DNA of 64,000 nucleotides from Bizionia sp. M204 (GTDB lineage: Bacteria; Bacteroidota; Bacteroidia; Flavobacteriales; Flavobacteriaceae): assembly GCF_023205095.1 (NCBI RefSeq), contig NZ_CP046242.1, forward strand, positions 2,903,001-2,967,000, given 5' to 3'. Both the position numbers and the translations under genes were made by a program. How positions within the stretch are numbered: the first letter of the stretch is position 1; each line of letters opens with the position of its first letter. The notes under the pieces are model-generated. The model was given only the letters and a program-made list of their open reading frames with translations. It was not told the origin of the DNA and did no database searches. Positions 1,238-58,813 of the stretch are shown piece after piece.

Positions 1238-3520
1238 TTGAAACCGTACCAAACATTTAAACACATTTGTATGCTTATTTGGATAGGGAGTTTTTACTCT
1301 TGTAGCATAACTAAGCAGATTCCAGAAGATGAACGTTTGTACACAGGCGCTACGCTTACCATTGAGTCTGATAGTACTATTGTAAACGAATCAGGTTTGA
1401 AATCTGAATTAGAATCGGTTTTACGTCCGGAACCAAATTCCACCTTTTTAGGTATGCATCTTGGCTTGTATTACTATTATAAAAATCAGAAAGAAAAACC
1501 TGGATTTATTAATCGTTGGCTCTACAAACAGTTTGGTGAAGAACCCGTTTATCAATCGGATGTGGAAACCTATGAAATTGAAGACTTACTATTAAACCGA
1601 TTAGAAAACAGAGGGTTTTTCTATAGTCGTGCAGCTTCAGCTTTTGAAGAAACTGAAAATAAAGCCTCATTAAATTATACGGTTACTGTTCCAAAACCAT
1701 ATAGAATGGCTAGCTACACAATGGATTCCATGCCTGTTAGCATTCATGAAACTATGGAGAAATTGGTGTCGGAATCGCAGTTTAAAAATGGTATGCGTTT
1801 CGATTTGAATAACATGAAATTAGAACGTCAGCGTATTGATAAGGCTCTTAAAAGCAAAGGCTATTTTAATTTTAATGATAATTTTTTAATTTTTGAAGCA
1901 GACACAAATCAATATTCTAATAAAAACTTCGACTTATTCTTAAAATTAAAAAACGAAGTGCCTAAAAAAAGTTTGATTCCATATAAAATTTCAAAAGTTA
2001 ATGTGTATCCTAATTATGAAGTTTCAGATTCGGCTTCCATAACACCAACACGCTTTAATGAGAAAAATTTTATACAAAAGGAAAGGTTCTTTAAACCTAA
2101 ATATTTAGATCCTTTTATAGTGTTAGATGAAGGGGAGTATTATAATCCTGACGATTCTCGTAACACCGCCAGAAGGCTTTCCACTATTGGTGCCTATAAA
2201 TACGTAAATATTCAATATAAAGAATTGGATACTTTGGCCGATGATAATTTAGGACTTTTAGAGGCTAATATTTACTTATCGCCATTAAATAAGCGTGCAC
2301 TTCGTGCAGAGCTTCAGGTTGTAACTAAATCTAATAGTTTTGCTGGTCCTGCCTTAACACTAACTTTAAGTAATAGAAATTTATTTGGAGGTGGTGAAAC
2401 CTATAATATTACACCTAAAATAGGGTACGAAAAACAATTAGGAGGTGGTCAAGATTCTGGTAATAGTAGTTTAGAGTTAGGGTTGCACAACGAGCTTATT
2501 TTTCCCCGAGTCCTTTTCCCTATTAAGATAAATGAGGATTTTTTCGAATATTCCATTCCTAAAACAAAAACCTCTTTAAGTATTGATTATTTAGATAGAA
2601 GCGATTTATATACCTTACTATCAGGAACAGCTTTATTTGGTTATTCATGGGATGCCAATAGGTATGTAACTCATGAAATTAATCCAATATCATTAAGTTA
2701 TACAGAACTTTTAAACACCACGCCAGAATTTGAAGATATACTAGAAAATGATCCTTTTTTAAGACGCAGTTTTGAACAGCAGTTTATAGCTGGATTAACT
2801 TATGCATTTACTTATAACGAAATGATAAATGCCCAATTAAAACATCAATTTTATTTTAATTTCACCTTTGATATTGCTGGAAATACTATTAGTTTATTTA
2901 GTAAAGATCAAGGAACGGAAAGCCCAAAAACATTTCTAGGCTTTGAATATGCACAATATGCTAAAGCAGATGTTGATTTTCATTATCATTTTAATTTAGG
3001 AAAAGAACGGGTAATTGCAGCTAGACTTTTTGGAGGTTATGGTTTTGCTTATGGAAATTCAGATGTTATTCCTTTTGTAAAACAGTATTATTCTGGTGGT
3101 CCATATAGTGTTCGTGCCTTTAATATTAGATCTTTAGGTCCAGGAACCTATAACCCAAATTCAGATACAACTGATGGCGATATTGTTTTCGATAAAACAG
3201 GAAATATAAGACTCGAAGCCAATGTAGAATACCGCTTTCCTATTGTATCATTTTTAAAAGGAGCCGTTTTTGCCGATGCTGGAAACATCTGGAACTCTAA
3301 AGAAAACCCTATTTATAATGGGAAAGATAAATTTGGAAGTGGATTTATTAGTGAGCTTGGAATGGGAGCAGGAATAGGCCTTCGTGTGGATATACAAAGT
3401 TTTGTAATTCGTTTTGATTTGGCTGCACCTTTTCATGATCCAGCATTACCGAAAGGAGAACGTTTTAATTTTGATGTTGGTTCTCCTATATTAAATTTTG
3501 CTATTGGATATCCGTTTTAG
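1238..3520 (+). CDS. tamL: TamL: lipoprotein-type BamA/TamA family outer-membrane assembly protein
   Basis: A 760-residue protein with an N-terminal lipoprotein signal (lipobox FYS-Cys22), POTRA-like repeats in roughly the first half, and a C-terminal Omp85-type beta-barrel. The barrel carries the conserved PYSVRAF element and ends in aromatic Phe, as BAM substrates do. The TTG start at 1238 is preferred over the internal ATG at 1271 because it supplies the basic residues and full hydrophobic stretch before the lipobox. In Bacteroidota the TamA homologue is a lipoprotein called TamL and sits next to tamB, as here. It probably inserts or exports proteins or lipids at the outer membrane with TamB. 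The family assignment is strong; the exact substrate is unknown. Confidence 0.9.
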   Translation: MKPYQTFKHICMLIWIGSFYSCSITKQIPEDERLYTGATLTIESDSTIVNESGLKSELESVLRPEPNSTFLGMHLGLYYYYKNQKEKPGFINRWLYKQFGEEPVYQSDVETYEIEDLLLNRLENRGFFYSRAASAFEETENKASLNYTVTVPKPYRMASYTMDSMPVSIHETMEKLVSESQFKNGMRFDLNNMKLERQRIDKALKSKGYFNFNDNFLIFEADTNQYSNKNFDLFLKLKNEVPKKSLIPYKISKVNVYPNYEVSDSASITPTRFNEKNFIQKERFFKPKYLDPFIVLDEGEYYNPDDSRNTARRLSTIGAYKYVNIQYKELDTLADDNLGLLEANIYLSPLNKRALRAELQVVTKSNSFAGPALTLTLSNRNLFGGGETYNITPKIGYEKQLGGGQDSGNSSLELGLHNELIFPRVLFPIKINEDFFEYSIPKTKTSLSIDYLDRSDLYTLLSGTALFGYSWDANRYVTHEINPISLSYTELLNTTPEFEDILENDPFLRRSFEQQFIAGLTYAFTYNEMINAQLKHQFYFNFTFDIAGNTISLFSKDQGTESPKTFLGFEYAQYAKADVDFHYHFNLGKERVIAARLFGGYGFAYGNSDVIPFVKQYYSGGPYSVRAFNIRSLGPGTYNPNSDTTDGDIVFDKTGNIRLEANVEYRFPIVSFLKGAVFADAGNIWNSKENPIYNGKDKFGSGFISELGMGAGIGLRVDIQSFVIRFDLAAPFHDPALPKGERFNFDVGSPILNFAIGYPF

Positions 3521-10257: not shown

Positions 10258-12936
10258 ATGAAAAAAAATTTACACAAAGTTTTACCATTCGTAATTCTTA
10301 TGTTTTGTTTGTCAGCTTTTAGCCAAGATCAACACTTTAAAAAAGTGACTACAGGACAAGAAAACACTATGATGATTAATACCACGTATTCAATGGATAT
10401 TAATCATTTAATGAGCGATTTGAGTAAAGCACAGCAGCGAGGAGACTCGCGAGAACAACTTAATAATCTTGTAATTGAAGTACCTAACCTTGATGGGGAT
10501 TTAGAAAAGTACTTAATTCAAGAAGCATCTGTTATGTCGCCAGGCCTACAAGCGCAATATCCAGAAATAAGATCGTATGTTGGATATGGAATTGACACGC
10601 CTAGTTCATATTTACGTTTTAGTGTTTCTCCTTACAAAGGAATGTCAGGTATTGTTTTATCTGGTGTAGAAGGAAAGGGTCTAGTTATAGAGCCTGTAAA
10701 AAATAATGTATCTCAATTTATTGTTCGTGAGAAACAAAATTCAAATTCAGAAATTCAAAGTTTTGAATGTTCAACACCTGAAGCCTTAAATCAAGAAATC
10801 GGAGAAATTGTAAATACCAACCGTACAGGTGCTAATGGTACCTTACATACTTTTGATCTAGCAATGTCTGTAACAGCAGAATATTCTATTTTTCACGGTG
10901 GAACCTTGCCACAAGTTAATGCCGCTATCGTGAATACCATGACCGTTGTCAATGCTATTTTTGAAAATGAGTTTAATGTGAACATGGTATTAATTCCAAA
11001 TAATGATGCTGTTGTTTATTTAACGACGGCAACTTCGCCATATAGTAGTACTACTGATTCGGGGTACAATGGTGTTTTACAATCAACTTTAAATTCAGTT
11101 ATAGGTAATGCTAATTATGATATTGGTCATTTAATGGGTGGTATTGGTAATAATGGTAATGCTGGTTGTATTGGTTGTGTGTGTGTTGCTAATCAAAAAG
11201 GAAGTGGTTATACAACAAGTACAAACCCAATAGGTGTAAATTTTGATGTAGATTATGTTGCGCACGAAATGGGACACCAATTTGGCGCAAACCATACATT
11301 CACATTTCGATCTGAAGGTGGAATAGCTCAAATGGAACCAGGTAGTGGTAGTACAATAATGAGTTACGCAGGTATTACAGGTACGTCTGATGTACAACCT
11401 TTTGTAGATCCTTATTTTCATGCTATATCTATTCAGCAAGTCAATACACATGTGAGTTCTAGAACATGTGATGTTGAAACAGATACAGGAAATAATATCC
11501 CAACGGCAAATGCTGGCGCTAATATTACGTTACCTAAAGGAACTCCTTTTAGATTAACAGGTATAGGATCGGATGCGGATGCCAATGATGTAATTACTTA
11601 TTGCTGGGAGCAATTTGACGAGAATAATGGTGTAACTGAATTTCCAGACCCAACATCAACCAATAGTAATGAACCGCAATTCAGATCGTATTTACCAACT
11701 ACAAACCCAACAAGAACATTTCCTAAAATGGAGGATTTAGTAAACTTTGGTGTTAATGGTACGTTATACGAACAGATTCCTACTGTAGGAAGAAATGCAG
11801 ATTTCAGATTAACTGTTAGAGATAATAGACCAGGAGGTGCAGCTAATGCTTTCGATGATATGCGTGTTACGTGGAGCAATATGGCAGGACCTTTTGTGGT
11901 AACATCACAAGGAACAGATCAAATTGTATGGACGCCAGGTGAAACTGAAACCATAACTTGGAATGTGGCTGGTACAACAGCAAACGACATCAATGCTGCT
12001 AACGTAAATATTTTATTATCAACATCATTAACACCAGACACTGATTTTACAACAGTTTTAGCGACAAATGTTCCTAATAATGGTTCTTACCAAGTTGTAG
12101 TTCCTACTGTGACTTCTGCCTATTCTAGAATTCTAGTAGAAGCGGCAGATGGGTCATTTTTTAATATAAATGATAATTATTTCGCGATAGGGGACTATAT
12201 TTATGTGCCGGGTGATAGCTGTGAAGAGTATTTCTTTAACGCAGGCATATTATTAGATGAAAATTCAACTCAATTTAGCGGCTTTAATTTAAATATTGGC
12301 GATTCTAAAACTATTTCAGATCTTAAAATAAGCATAGATGCTACGACGCCAAATAGTGGTCAAATTCGTGCAGCTATCAGACCACCATCTCAAGCATCAG
12401 GTTTTAATCAAGTGTATTGGGGATCATGTGCGGGTTCTACAGATCTTATTTTAACGTTTGATGATGCTGGAAACCCTATTAACTGTGCAGATACAGCTAA
12501 TAACGATGTGGTATTACCAGCGCAACCTTTAAGTTTTGCTGACGGTCTTAATTCTTTAGGTAATTGGGTTTTCTTTATTGGGGATGTTGAGGTAGATGGC
12601 GTGAGAGTAACATGGAATTCTGCAACACTGACAATTTGTGAGTCTGGTATTTTTGTTCCAGAATTAAGTGTGGATGAATTTGGATTAGATGCTTCATTTG
12701 CGGTATTCCCAAATCCAAATAACGGTGATTTCTCAATTAAATTTAAGCCTTCCACAAACGAATCCATTAGTGTAGAAGTGTTTGATATAAGAGGTCGAAA
12801 TGTCTATAATAAAACGTATAACAGTACAGGTGATTTTAACGAGTCTATCTCGTTAAGTAATGCCCAAGCTGGTATGTACTTATTAAATGTGACTCAAGGA
12901 AGCCAGAAAATTACTAAAAAGTTAATTGTTAACTAA
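10258..12936 (+). CDS. Secreted zinc metalloprotease (metzincin, M12B-like) with T9SS type A sorting domain
   Basis: 892 residues. A signal peptide (about 1-22, ending FSQ) is followed by a pro-region and then a metzincin domain with the zinc motif HEMGHQFGANH (His336, His340, His346; catalytic Glu337) and a downstream Met-turn region (TIMSYAGI). After it come beta-sandwich modules, including a segment at about 655-800 that resembles a proprotein-convertase P-like domain. The last 80 residues are a T9SS type A domain (FPNPNNGDFSIKF to KKLIVN). It is expected to be exported by the T9SS and cell-attached or released, degrading extracellular protein. It is monocistronic, with its own promoter and a terminator at 12971-13000. 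The substrate is unknown. Confidence 0.9.
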   Translation: MKKNLHKVLPFVILMFCLSAFSQDQHFKKVTTGQENTMMINTTYSMDINHLMSDLSKAQQRGDSREQLNNLVIEVPNLDGDLEKYLIQEASVMSPGLQAQYPEIRSYVGYGIDTPSSYLRFSVSPYKGMSGIVLSGVEGKGLVIEPVKNNVSQFIVREKQNSNSEIQSFECSTPEALNQEIGEIVNTNRTGANGTLHTFDLAMSVTAEYSIFHGGTLPQVNAAIVNTMTVVNAIFENEFNVNMVLIPNNDAVVYLTTATSPYSSTTDSGYNGVLQSTLNSVIGNANYDIGHLMGGIGNNGNAGCIGCVCVANQKGSGYTTSTNPIGVNFDVDYVAHEMGHQFGANHTFTFRSEGGIAQMEPGSGSTIMSYAGITGTSDVQPFVDPYFHAISIQQVNTHVSSRTCDVETDTGNNIPTANAGANITLPKGTPFRLTGIGSDADANDVITYCWEQFDENNGVTEFPDPTSTNSNEPQFRSYLPTTNPTRTFPKMEDLVNFGVNGTLYEQIPTVGRNADFRLTVRDNRPGGAANAFDDMRVTWSNMAGPFVVTSQGTDQIVWTPGETETITWNVAGTTANDINAANVNILLSTSLTPDTDFTTVLATNVPNNGSYQVVVPTVTSAYSRILVEAADGSFFNINDNYFAIGDYIYVPGDSCEEYFFNAGILLDENSTQFSGFNLNIGDSKTISDLKISIDATTPNSGQIRAAIRPPSQASGFNQVYWGSCAGSTDLILTFDDAGNPINCADTANNDVVLPAQPLSFADGLNSLGNWVFFIGDVEVDGVRVTWNSATLTICESGIFVPELSVDEFGLDASFAVFPNPNNGDFSIKFKPSTNESISVEVFDIRGRNVYNKTYNSTGDFNESISLSNAQAGMYLLNVTQGSQKITKKLIVN

Positions 12937-45979: not shown

Positions 45980-46076
45980 ATCGGTGGTATTTCATCGATT
46001 ACTTACTGTAAGATACTAAAAATGTGTTGAGTAGCTTTTTGAGAAAATGAAAAATATAGGTTAGAGAATATTAAAA

Positions 46077-55721: not shown

Positions 55722-56330
55722 ATGGCTTTCGAATTACCGAAATTAAAATATGCTTATGATGCGTTAGAGCCGCACATAGATGCACGCACAATGGAAATAC
55801 ATCACTCAAAGCACCATGCTGGTTATACTTCAAAATTAAATGATGCTATAAAAGGTACGGATTTAGAGGGAAAAACAATAGATAATATCCTTATTAATTT
55901 GGATATGGATAACAAAGCGGTTAGAAATAATGGCGGTGGATTTTATAACCACTCCTTATTTTGGGACGTAATGAATCCAGAAGGAAAAGGCCGTTTGTCT
56001 GGCGACCTAAAAGATGCTATTGAAGCAGCTTATGGAAACATGGAAGAATTTAAAACAAAATTTAGTAATGCCGCAGCAACACAGTTTGGTTCTGGATGGG
56101 CTTGGCTATGTGTTCATAAAGGTGGTAAAGTTGAAATTTGCTCGACACCAAATCAAGATAACCCACTAATGCCAGGTGTTGGTTGTGGTGGAACACCAAT
56201 TTTAGGATTGGATGTTTGGGAACATGCATATTACTTAAATTACCAAAACAGACGTCCTGATTATATTGATGCATTTTTTAATGTAATCAATTGGAATGAA
56301 GTTGAAAGACGTTATGCTGAGGCAAAATAA
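55722..56330 (+). CDS. Superoxide dismutase (Mn-type by signature)
   Basis: 202 residues of the Fe/Mn SOD family. The metal ligands are His27 ([10 protein letters not shown]), His77 (YNHSLFW), Asp164 and His168 (DVWEHAYY). The Gly-Gly-Gly before the second His and Gln145 in [10 protein letters not shown] are the MnSOD-type pair; FeSODs carry Gln at the earlier site. It converts superoxide to oxygen and peroxide in the cytosol. A clear terminator follows. Mn preference is from sequence only and cambialistic activity is possible. Confidence 0.95.
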
Positions 56331-56354
56331 GGCGTAAAACGTTTAATTATATGG

Positions 56355-56386
56355 AAAGCAAATCTGAAAGGGTTTGCTTTTTTTTT
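56355..56386 (+). terminator. Intrinsic terminator after sod
   Basis: A 10-bp stem AAAGCAAATC (56355-56364) with GGTTTGCTTT (56371-56380), one wobble pair, a 6-base loop and a T-run to 56386, 25 bases after the stop. Confidence 0.85.
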
Positions 56387-56408
56387 GAACATGAAAGTAT
56401 TGAAAATG

Positions 56409-56481
56409 AAAAAAGGCGAACAGATGTTCACCTTTTTTGCCCCAAATCTACCATAAACTTAACCTACTTATGTTATGGTGA
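56409..56481 (-). repeat. Two-hairpin element, copy 1
   Basis: A 73-base unit about 96 percent identical to copy 2. Read on the minus strand it folds into a hairpin (ACCATAAC with GTT-Y-ATGGT, one bulge, 13-base loop), a linker AGATTTGGGGC, and a terminator-like hairpin GGTGAAC/GTTCGCC ending in T-run. The minus orientation is favoured because the central pair is U-G there but a C/A mismatch on the plus strand. It lies between the sod terminator and the second copy. Confidence 0.6.
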
Positions 56482-56734
56482 AACAAATAAACGGCACTTA
56501 TTTTCCACTAAAAAAAAAACTAGACAAACGACTTATAAACTGGGACAAACGAATATTTAAGCTTTAAAATCTATTTTTTTTAATTATAAAGCTGAAGTTT
56601 GTAAGTCCTTGAAAATGAATGGTAAAATCAATTAATATGCTATAATTGAGAAGTAAGAGCAACTTGCTCGCTGATTAAGGGTAGAATTCAATAATAATGA
56701 AAATGGTTTCAATTTTAGGTGTTTATTAAAAATA

Positions 56735-56808
56735 AAAAAAGGCGAACAGAAGTTCACCTTTTTTTGCCCCAAATCTACCATGAACTTAACCTACTTATGT
56801 TATGGTGA
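56735..56808 (-). repeat. Two-hairpin element, copy 2 (downstream of purF)
   Basis: A 74-base unit that differs from copy 1 by one loop base, one bulge base and one T in a run; both substitutions fall outside paired positions. It begins 107 bases after the purF stop on the same strand, so its 3' hairpin with T-run may be the purF terminator. The interval between copies (56482-56734) has no reading frame or structure that I recognise. Confidence 0.6.
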
Positions 56809-56914
56809 TTCTAAAGTATATTATTTTTAAGCTTAAAAACTATTAATCCGATGAAATGCTAATAAACTCGATAAAAAGCAATATTATACAGGTAATTAGC
56901 ACATATTCAATGTG

Positions 56915-58813
56915 TTAATACGCACGATCTTTGTTTCCTTCAAAGAAGTTAATAAAGGCACGATTTACAACACGATTACCTCCTGCTGTTGGATAATTGC
57001 CCGTAAAGTACCAATCGCCTAAATTTTTAGGACACGCTTTATGTAAATTTTCTATGGGCTGGAATATGGCAACAACTTCCGCGTTAATGTTTTCATTAGA
57101 TATTAATTGGGCTATTTTATCCGAAATGGCATCAGCTGAAAATTGTGAATACAAATCTTTTACAAAATTCCGAACATCTTTATCTTCCAATTCAACTTGG
57201 GCCTTACATTTGTCGTAAACCTCTTGTATTAAATGGTATTTGTTGTTTTCTTCCAATAATTCTAACATGGCTCTGAAGGCAATTAAATCTTCCAAACGTG
57301 CCATATCTATACCATAACAATCGGGATATCTAATTTGTGGTGCAGATGAAACGACTATAATCTTTTTAGGATGTAAGCGATCCATCATTTTTATAATACT
57401 TTTCTTTAATGTGGTACCACGAACAATACTATCGTCAATAATTACCAAATTATCGGTTGGTTTAATGACTCCATAGGTTACATCATAAACGTGAGCTACT
57501 AAATCGTCGCGACTACTATCTTCCGTAATAAAGGTTCTTAACTTAACATCCTTTATGGCTATTTTTTCAATACGTGGTCGTTCAGATAAAATATTAGTAA
57601 CAACTTCAGCGCTTAATTTGCCATTACCATCTAAAATAGCTTGCGTTTTTTTCTTGTTTAAATGTTCCTCAACTGTTTCTATCATTCCAAAGAAAGACGT
57701 TTCCGCAGTATTAGGGATATATGAAAACACAGTATTCTTGGTGTCGTTATCAATGGCTTCTAAAACCTTAGGCATTAAAAATTTACCCAAGTTTTTTCGT
57801 TCTTGATAAATTTCAGCATCACTACCACGCGAAAAATAAATACGTTCAAATGAACAGGCTTTGCGCTCCAAAGGTTCCAGTATTTTTTTAATTGCAACTT
57901 CACCAGATTTTTTGGTAATAATGGCATGTCCAGGTTCTAGCTCCTTAACATCATCAAAATCCACATTGAAAACAGTCTGAATAACAGGGCGTTCAGAAGC
58001 TACTACAACTACTTCATCATCCTTATAGTAATAAACTGGTCTTATTCCTGCTGGATCGCGAAGAACAAAGGAATCTCCATGTCCTAATAATCCAGCCATA
58101 GCATAACCACCATCCCAATCTTTAGCCGATTTTTTTAGGATTTTAGCAACATTTAAACGCTCAGCAATTAATGGTGAGCATTCATGCTTGTTATATCCTT
58201 CTTTTTTTAATTTTCTGTATATTTTGGAAACAGCATCATCTAAGAAGTGACCTATTTTTTCCATAATAGTAACGGTATCTGCCATCTCTTTAGGATGCTG
58301 ACCTATACGCACCAAACCATCAAAAAGCTCATTAACATTGGTCATGTTAAAGTTTCCAGCAACAATCAGGTTTCTATGCATCCAGTTGTTTTGGCGTAAA
58401 AATGGATGGACACTCTCAACACTATTTTTACCAAATGTTCCGTAACGCACATGTCCTAAAAGTACTTCACCTATATATGGAATGTGTTTTTTTTGAAGTT
58501 CCACATTATCAACATATTCCGGGTTTTCGGTAAGCTCCTTATTAATGCGTTCATTTATTTGTGCAAAAATGTCCTGAATAGGTTGTTGTGCAATGGAGCG
58601 GACACGACTAATGTAGCGTTCGCCAGGTTGCGTATCTAATTTAATACTAGCAAAACCAGCACCATCTTGTCCTCGGTTGTGCTGTTTTTCCATTAACAAA
58701 TACATTTTATTAACACCATAAAAGGCGCTACCGTATTTTTCTTTATAGAATTCCAGTGGTTTTAGTAAGCGAATTTGTGCAATACCACATTCATGTTTTA
58801 AAGCGTCACTCAT
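56915..58813 (-). CDS. Amidophosphoribosyltransferase-like protein (long Bacteroidota form)
   Basis: 632 residues, longer than the usual 470-510 of PurF. The Ntn glutaminase domain starts after a short leader with Cys9 (HECGIAQIRLL), and the RGQDGAGF, GHVRYGTFGKNS and GNFNMTNVNELF blocks follow. The phosphoribosyltransferase domain has NLVIIDDSIVRGTTLKKSI, the PRPP loop. It transfers ammonia from glutamine to PRPP, the first step of purine synthesis; the insertions relative to PurF make the exact role less certain. Cys9 would need removal of an 8-residue propeptide to become N-terminal. It follows the PfkB kinase gene, separated by a hairpin. Confidence 0.82.
   Translation of the reverse strand: MSDALKHECGIAQIRLLKPLEFYKEKYGSAFYGVNKMYLLMEKQHNRGQDGAGFASIKLDTQPGERYISRVRSIAQQPIQDIFAQINERINKELTENPEYVDNVELQKKHIPYIGEVLLGHVRYGTFGKNSVESVHPFLRQNNWMHRNLIVAGNFNMTNVNELFDGLVRIGQHPKEMADTVTIMEKIGHFLDDAVSKIYRKLKKEGYNKHECSPLIAERLNVAKILKKSAKDWDGGYAMAGLLGHGDSFVLRDPAGIRPVYYYKDDEVVVVASERPVIQTVFNVDFDDVKELEPGHAIITKKSGEVAIKKILEPLERKACSFERIYFSRGSDAEIYQERKNLGKFLMPKVLEAIDNDTKNTVFSYIPNTAETSFFGMIETVEEHLNKKKTQAILDGNGKLSAEVVTNILSERPRIEKIAIKDVKLRTFITEDSSRDDLVAHVYDVTYGVIKPTDNLVIIDDSIVRGTTLKKSIIKMMDRLHPKKIIVVSSAPQIRYPDCYGIDMARLEDLIAFRAMLELLEENNKYHLIQEVYDKCKAQVELEDKDVRNFVKDLYSQFSADAISDKIAQLISNENINAEVVAIFQPIENLHKACPKNLGDWYFTGNYPTAGGNRVVNRAFINFFEGNKDRAY

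Follow-up and report, generated by a model that had tools for sequence, protein, structure and literature searches.

A probable tandem multicopy small RNA between purF and sod in Flavobacteriaceae, predicted to pair with translation start regions

The duplicated element downstream of purF in Bizionia sp. M204 is, judged from its sequence, a pair of small regulatory RNA (sRNA) genes, neither a repeat nor a double terminator. We consider it highly probable that the two genes belong to a tandem multicopy family of trans-acting base-pairing sRNAs, which would use two seeds to reach three target families (T1 to T3), block their translation and likely take part in a feed-forward loop. The family appears to be confined, so far, to the Flavobacteriaceae. 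The window, the whole stretch of 64,000 nucleotides that was analyzed, carries the two copies on the minus strand at 56409-56481 and 56735-56808, in the intergenic region between two genes that we take to be purF, the name also used in an earlier note on this DNA, and, from its protein sequence, a superoxide dismutase gene (sod). The earlier note had described two near-identical copies, each folding into an 8-bp 5' hairpin with one bulge, a linker and a terminator hairpin with a T-run; we re-found both the copies and the fold, and the E-values of the homologs place the similarity beyond chance. Its two substitutions between the copies indeed lie at the 5' hairpin bulge and in the terminator loop, but one base of an A-run, a difference in length, had been overlooked. 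Promoters, synteny and targets are additions to that note. From the succession of promoter box, 5' hairpin, conserved linker and terminator, each sRNA would be about 72 nt long (Table 1).

Table 1. Coordinates of the two sRNA gene copies, their parts and neighbors, and of a second sRNA-like RNA in other genomes.
Feature	Position	Strand	Remark
sRNA gene copy 1 (sod-proximal)	56409..56479	-	predicted start at A of ACCAUAAC (56479)
sRNA gene copy 2 (purF-proximal)	56735..56806	-	predicted start at 56806
Copy 1 intrinsic terminator	56409..56438	-	
Copy 2 intrinsic terminator	56735..56765	-	
Copy 1 seed 1, hairpin loop AUAAGUAGGUUAA	56459..56471	-	nearly invariant; alignment and pairing predictions
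Copy 1 seed 2, linker AGAUUUGGGGC	56439..56449	-	alignment; predicted unpaired
Copy 2 seed 1, loop	56786..56798	-	alignment
Copy 2 seed 2, linker	56766..56776	-	alignment
Copy 1 -7 promoter box TTTATTTG	56484..56491	-	consensus TAnnTTTG, -12 to -5
Copy 2 -7 promoter box TACTTTAG	56811..56818	-	-12 to -5
Copy 1 upstream element GTTTGTCTAG	56520..56529	-	family tendency TTT..TCTAA, about -49 to -40
Copy 2 upstream element ATTTCATCGG	56848..56857	-	
purF (presumed), same-strand upstream neighbor	56915..58813	-	flank of conserved locus
sod (presumed), convergent neighbor	55722..56330	+	flank of conserved locus
Second sRNA-like RNA, G044	L324:1050-1140	-	
Second sRNA-like RNA, G059	L325:1000-1085	-	
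Second sRNA-like RNA, G017	L326:1040-1130	+	

On the minus strand, the two copies folded with z-scores of -4.1 and -4.6 relative to dinucleotide shuffles; none of 200 shuffles was as stable. The plus strand folded strongly as well (z -4.4 and -5.6 against dinucleotide shuffles), so that folding alone does not fix the strand. We assigned the minus strand by the -7 boxes, by conservation and by a U-G pair of the terminator stem; this pair, which the earlier note had correctly described as a wobble on the minus strand only, becomes a C-A mismatch on the plus strand.

Both copies are preceded by a -7 box at -12 to -5. When the 110 distinct upstream regions of the family were aligned on the start of the element, TAnnTTTG was best placed at -12 in 89 of them and at -13 or -14 in 18 more. 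The sigmaA box of Flavobacterium psychrophilum has likewise been located at -12 to -5, according to the text available to us (PMC9723704). Given a box at this position, the transcript is expected to start at the base of the 5' hairpin, with the A/G of [AG]CCAU. A weaker upstream element, TTT..TCTAA, recurs near -49 to -40 in the sRNA upstream regions. We infer that each copy is an expressed gene with its own promoter and its own terminator, which would be transcribed separately from the sigmaA-type box and end at that terminator; processing from the purF mRNA may contribute in addition. Since every copy has a promoter box of its own, the origin from a 3'-UTR that the earlier note had considered is unsupported. 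The sod-proximal copies of seven loci (L041, L042, L044, L047, L051, L052 and L055) share a long promoter, TTTATTTCCCACAATACCAGTAATTTAG, which is conserved with slight variation and unlike that of the other copies; the copies may therefore answer different signals.

Homologs were found widely within the family. A 73-nt query gave full-length blastn matches with E-values as low as 4e-32 within the genus and 1e-29 beyond it, and strong matches occurred in most Flavobacteriaceae genera among the 99 related genomes searched. A scan of named records gave at least 118 matching stretches. The 80 of them that were listed include Zobellia uliginosa, Aequorivita aquimaris and Xanthomarina gelatinilytica and come from genera that are, we presume, Flavobacteriaceae or from records named only Bacteroidetes, Bacteroidota or Flavobacteriia. 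With a covariance model, the sRNA was detected in 47 of 60 sampled Flavobacteriaceae genomes (E <= 1.3e-8), so that the refuting outcome named in the earlier note, no further copies in relatives, did not occur. In a phylum-wide set of 395 genomes, 33 of 41 Flavobacteriaceae gave strong matches (E <= 1.6e-13) and the 354 genomes of other families no convincing one (best E = 0.0017), both covariance-model scans having been run with stricter filters that may have lost weak homologs. The model search found no sRNA in 13 of the 60 Flavobacteriaceae genomes, some of them small (G007, G008, G009, G015, G021, G027, G028, G030, G038, G040, G046, G052 and G057); either loss or strong divergence would account for this. 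The 60-genome scan also returned weak matches outside the family, in G075 (7.9e-5), G069 (0.0016), G088 (0.0047) and G086 (0.005). We rejected those in G075 and G069, which look terminator-only, and none of the three inspected (G075, G069 and G086) was convincing as a homolog outside the Flavobacteriaceae. G086, from another family of the order, provides a lead: at L322 (G086:C47, about 2055-2390, minus strand), two highly similar elements 264 nt apart carry TTTCATGGTAAATTTGGG and a terminator and are possibly distant relatives of the array.

The copies occupy a conserved position. The window and 49 further loci together hold 110 copies, with two to six copies in 39 of the loci and a median spacing of 233 nt; L078, a further copy of G029 away from its first, lies outside this count. 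All but two of the 50 loci (48/50; the exceptions are L057 and L059, where neither gene is adjacent) adjoin purF and/or sod, and where purF is present the copies lie downstream of it on the same strand. G012 and G019 have copies at separate places, one next to purF and another next to sod. In another set of 110 loci, which overlaps the first and in which several sequence stretches end near the array, 106 adjoin purF and/or sod: 82 have both genes nearby, 16 have purF alone and 8 have sod alone, whereas the other 4 have neither. The two copies of L057 (G010:C13) are extra copies, located at 1971-2037 and 10595-10661 on the minus strand, 8.6 kb apart; some 340 nt separate one of them from sequence that encodes a portion of a large T3-like protein. 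Overall, most sampled Flavobacteriaceae genomes have one to six copies at the same locus, and the window genome has two full copies at its single locus.

This arrangement bears on the idea that the element is a plain terminator pair or a REP-like extragenic repeat without a transcript of its own. A terminator hairpin does close each copy, and no Rfam family scored above threshold there, but the box stands at the same position in 89 of the 110 promoters, the terminator varies in a sequence that is otherwise near-invariant, and the copies sit at a single conserved locus rather than being scattered; we give this explanation almost no credence. Because the copies form a syntenic array, the extragenic repeat family proposed in the earlier note likewise finds no support. 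The small RNA that it had offered as another option is borne out by the promoter boxes, the conserved seeds and the array.

We then consider which parts of the sRNA are conserved. An alignment of 52 sequences, dereplicated from 109 copies, contained 26 invariant columns. The sequence of the terminator stem was variable, while the hairpin loop AUAAGUAGGUUAA and the linker AGAUUUGGGG were near-invariant across the family. In the predicted ensemble of copy 1, the linker is free, with an unpaired probability of at least 0.97 over AGATTTGGGGC; the 13-nt loop is predicted to contain a weak inner stem of 3 bp. Across the eight outer pairs of the 5' hairpin in the 52 sequences, one cell was altered on both sides, and one pair changed from A-U to G-U in 25 sequences. 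The stem barely varies, and its covariation therefore neither supports nor refutes it; the covariance search suggested in the earlier note delivered homologs, but next to no covariation in this hairpin. Three genomes (G017, G044 and G059) contain a second sRNA-like RNA that keeps both seeds around a different hairpin, with the loop sequence ACATAAGTAGGTT at its predicted 5' end and the linker ATTTGGGGCGAAAA after the hairpin. The recurrence of both seeds around another hairpin supports the view that the seed stretches, rather than the hairpin, are the working parts. A peptide read by eye inside the sRNA was discarded, its frame being shifted by one extra A in many copies.

Apart from the array, the window genome has a single locus, T1, that matches TAGATTTGGGGCA with at most one mismatch. 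The opposite strand of this locus has a promoter-like box, a leader with sRNA complements and an ORF of 40-42 codons (about 42 aa), which faces an ABC-transporter ATPase gene in convergent orientation and lies downstream of an apparent 3-oxoacid CoA-transferase subunit gene, both names being assumed from the neighbors' protein sequences. We rejected T1 as a sense-strand repeat RNA, as it is the other strand that shows the ORF and the complementary sites. Among 19 loci with partial matches (L035 and L061-L078), 14 contained T1; L074 and L075 are sRNA copies, and L076 and L077 have short matches only. A protein profile (E < 1e-5) detected T1 in 27 of the 60 Flavobacteriaceae genomes, namely in 27 of 47 that bear the sRNA versus 0 of 13 that lack it (Fisher p = 1e-4, uncorrected for kinship); 20 of the 47 sRNA-bearing genomes had no T1 at this threshold. 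Over the last 18 codons of 25 T1 ORFs, one of which is a codon longer and was aligned one codon off, differences numbered 1895 at the first, 1163 at the second and 2621 at the third codon position. Codon changes by a single base were synonymous in 55% of cases in frame, versus 10-32% in the other five frames. Judged by these substitution patterns, the ORF is under coding constraint. Three T1 members gave no Pfam or NCBIfam match above cut-off.

Duplexes were computed between the first 50 nt of the sRNA and the T1 leader plus 60 nt of coding sequence. In 13 of the 14 genomes, their energies lay between -40 and -53 kcal/mol (z between -6.4 and -11.7); the remaining genome gave -31 kcal/mol (z -4.4), a weaker value that we ascribe to its leader having been shortened in the analysis. 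As it was similarity to the sRNA that led to these first 14 loci, their complementarity is in part a matter of selection. The 25 ORFs found with the profile, which overlap the first 14 and whose N-terminal codons are themselves part of a site, gave -27 to -56 kcal/mol around the start codon, with 10 to 24 contiguous complementary bases. In T1 of the window genome, the sites number three and lie near -75, -35 and +5, counted from the start codon; several relatives also have three, others two, and G011 one strong site. Six divergent genomes, only two of which (G017 and G044) are among the 27, have a T1 relative with the same C-terminus, as recognized by eye, and fewer or weaker sites.

T2 and T3 were found via loop complements in the window genome. 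T2 encodes a yhhN-like membrane protein (Pfam YhhN, 23.5 bits, just under the cut-off of 25.6). The 5' end of its mRNA is predicted near AACCUACUUAUG, and the site lies directly behind the -7 box. Sites of 9 to 14 contiguous complementary bases were present in 10 of 14 T2 homologs from the 60 genomes searched, weaker sites of 6 and 7 bases in two, and none in the two most distant; outside the window's genus, 5 of 9 homologs had a site of at least 9 contiguous bases. T3 is a putative secreted protein of 267 aa without a Pfam match. Its homologs carry ACCTACTT within the first codons in 8 of 9 cases (3 of 4 outside the genus) and CCCCAA immediately before the start codon in 7 of 9, these nine being the first of many matches, most others of which are parts of much larger proteins. 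Many T2 and T3 homologs belong to the window's own genus. All three targets paired more strongly than 1255 start regions (Mann-Whitney p 7e-18, 1e-5 and 3e-6 for T1, T2 and T3), and the median longest complement was 14, 11 and 11 nt versus 6 nt in these controls, which come from the retrieved loci and have T3 windows among their strongest, the homologs not being independent. The anti-linker and anti-loop of T1 and T3 stand in the order needed for a single duplex. On these comparisons, pairing of the sRNA with the start regions of T1 to T3 is well supported.

According to our working model, the loop and linker seeds would pair, together or singly, with mRNA 5' ends and start regions, and the site order in T1 and T3 would fit one bipartite duplex. 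Pairing at the start codon or at the mRNA 5' end would most likely block translation initiation; repression rather than activation is proposed from the position of the sites. The same data were weighed against two other roles. CsrB-type RNAs sequester an RNA-binding protein, and the hairpin-linker motif could do likewise, the antisense repeats of the T1 leader being incidental. A protein site would be as near-invariant as the loop and linker are, and the T1 leader region, on its other strand, resembles several copies of the motif. However, the promoter-like box and the conserved ORF lie on the strand opposite these repeats, so that the T1 mRNA carries complements and not copies of the motif, and T2 and T3 carry complements as well; we judge sequestration improbable. 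Alternatively, the T1 mRNA could serve mainly as a sponge that relieves T2, T3 and others, with repression of T1 itself secondary. It forms far stronger predicted duplexes than T2 and T3 do, and the three strong sites that the window genome and several relatives have over the leader and first codons exceed what repression needs. In most of the 14 genomes, however, the sites reach the start codon or first codons, where repression usually acts, and the ORF is constrained as a coding sequence. A predominant sponge role thus seems to us rather unlikely, although T1 could well be both a sponge and a repressed target.

Base pairing with T1 to T3 does not seem to extend to a wide regulon. Near-matches to either seed showed no excess over reversed controls in the window genome, and AACCTACTTATGR was not enriched in the 99 relatives (51 matches versus 55 for the reversed control; 30 loci inspected). 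As seed matches are no commoner than reversed controls, we count this against a wide regulon. The best of 61 start regions in the window reached -26.2 kcal/mol with a 10-nt match, near background. One exact TTTCATCGA lies at 45990-45998 of the window, where 0.8 is expected by chance. Elsewhere in the window genome, a gene for a putative large secreted protein (L087, near G000:C1:401691, minus strand) has AGCCCCAAATCTG directly behind its -7 box and TTTCATCTGA upstream, and is a possible fourth target.

An upstream motif, TTTCATC(G/T)A, is shared between the sRNA genes and their targets. With at most one mismatch, it was found on either strand in 45 of 110 sRNA upstream regions, and upstream of T1 in 13 of 24, of T2 in 9 of 13 and of T3 in 7 of 9 regions, one T1 and one T2 region having been dropped for want of a recognizable box; related sequences among these are not independent. 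The frequency in controls was 6.2% of 1177 regions, which were placed by distance from the start codon and not by the box, and base composition may explain part of the enrichment. The motif suggests a regulator common to sRNA genes and targets, and hence a likely feed-forward loop in which this single regulator would drive both the sRNA and the target mRNAs. It also fits the notion that what the sRNA genes and targets have in common are not RNA pairing sites but promoter-near operators for a single transcription factor, as does the T2 site directly behind the -7 box. Yet the distance to the box varies, from directly behind it in T2 to around the start codon in T3 and from leader into coding sequence in T1, and in T1 and T3 the anti-linker and anti-loop follow each other as one duplex requires, which makes operators very improbable. 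Building on RNA pairing, a fuller, family-wide circuit can be drawn, in which one transcription factor drives a dose-graded tandem array together with the targets, and the multi-site T1 leader, at once main target and sponge, buffers the action of the sRNA on envelope and secreted proteins; we offer it tentatively and rate it as somewhat less than probable.

Comparison with Rfam, including Flavo-1, had been proposed in the earlier note; no family reached threshold on the element, and the only match in the window was a tRNA. A permissive scan of 56300-56900 to E = 10 gave sub-threshold matches only. The FopS model (RF04319), which has a threshold of 56 bits, scored 20.4 bits on the minus and 16.8 on the plus strand, and STnc40 (RF02057) at best 27.7 against 45, so that the element belongs to neither by these scores; that of STnc40 stems mainly from the terminator, because both strands of both copies score alike. 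Flavo-1, which we take to be RF01705, is a flavobacterial structured RNA like the one described here, but its model matched nowhere in the window at the Rfam threshold, nor was it among the 35 matches listed for 56300-56900. Near-identical sibling sRNAs with common targets, such as Qrr, LhrC and NgncR_162/163, are known from other phyla. We liken them to the purF-sod sRNA by kind, the sequence comparison being that of the Rfam scan. As with such multicopy sRNAs, there are several copies, each with a predicted promoter and terminator of its own, and conserved seeds face conserved complements at target start regions.

Within the phylum, the purF-sod sRNA would work like FopS, 14 paralogous sRNAs of Bacteroides thetaiotaomicron, which, in the text available to us, are also multicopy, about 65-70 nt long and transcribed from a standard sigma promoter, and which pair at translation starts of surface-protein mRNAs, as is predicted here for start regions (PMC11697453). 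By the same text, the FopS genes lie at separate sites and are intergenic, antisense or 3'-UTR-derived, whereas the purF-sod sRNA forms one syntenic array, and the FopS targets differ from T1 to T3 (PMC11697453). Rfp18 of F. psychrophilum, a flavobacterial sRNA too, affects metalloprotease mRNAs and is described with at least three stem-loops versus two here; the main text of that report does not mention purF or sodA, and its supplementary sRNA list could hold a homolog (PMC9723704). Candidate sRNAs of F. columnare have also been reported, with no mention of purF in the portion available to us (PMC5395568). In the literature searched, supplementary tables aside, we did not find the family, its locus, its targets or the small-protein gene described; the kind, a multicopy base-pairing sRNA, is already known, and the purF-sod family is apparently new.

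To our knowledge, the Bacteroidota have so far yielded few trans-acting sRNAs whose targets are named. The sRNA described here spans much of a major bacterial family, and with it the purF-sod intergenic region gains putative sRNA genes that are absent from Rfam. With its two seeds, the target families T1 to T3, a small-protein gene that is conserved and a candidate promoter element common to sRNA genes and targets, the system can be tested at once in a tractable flavobacterium.
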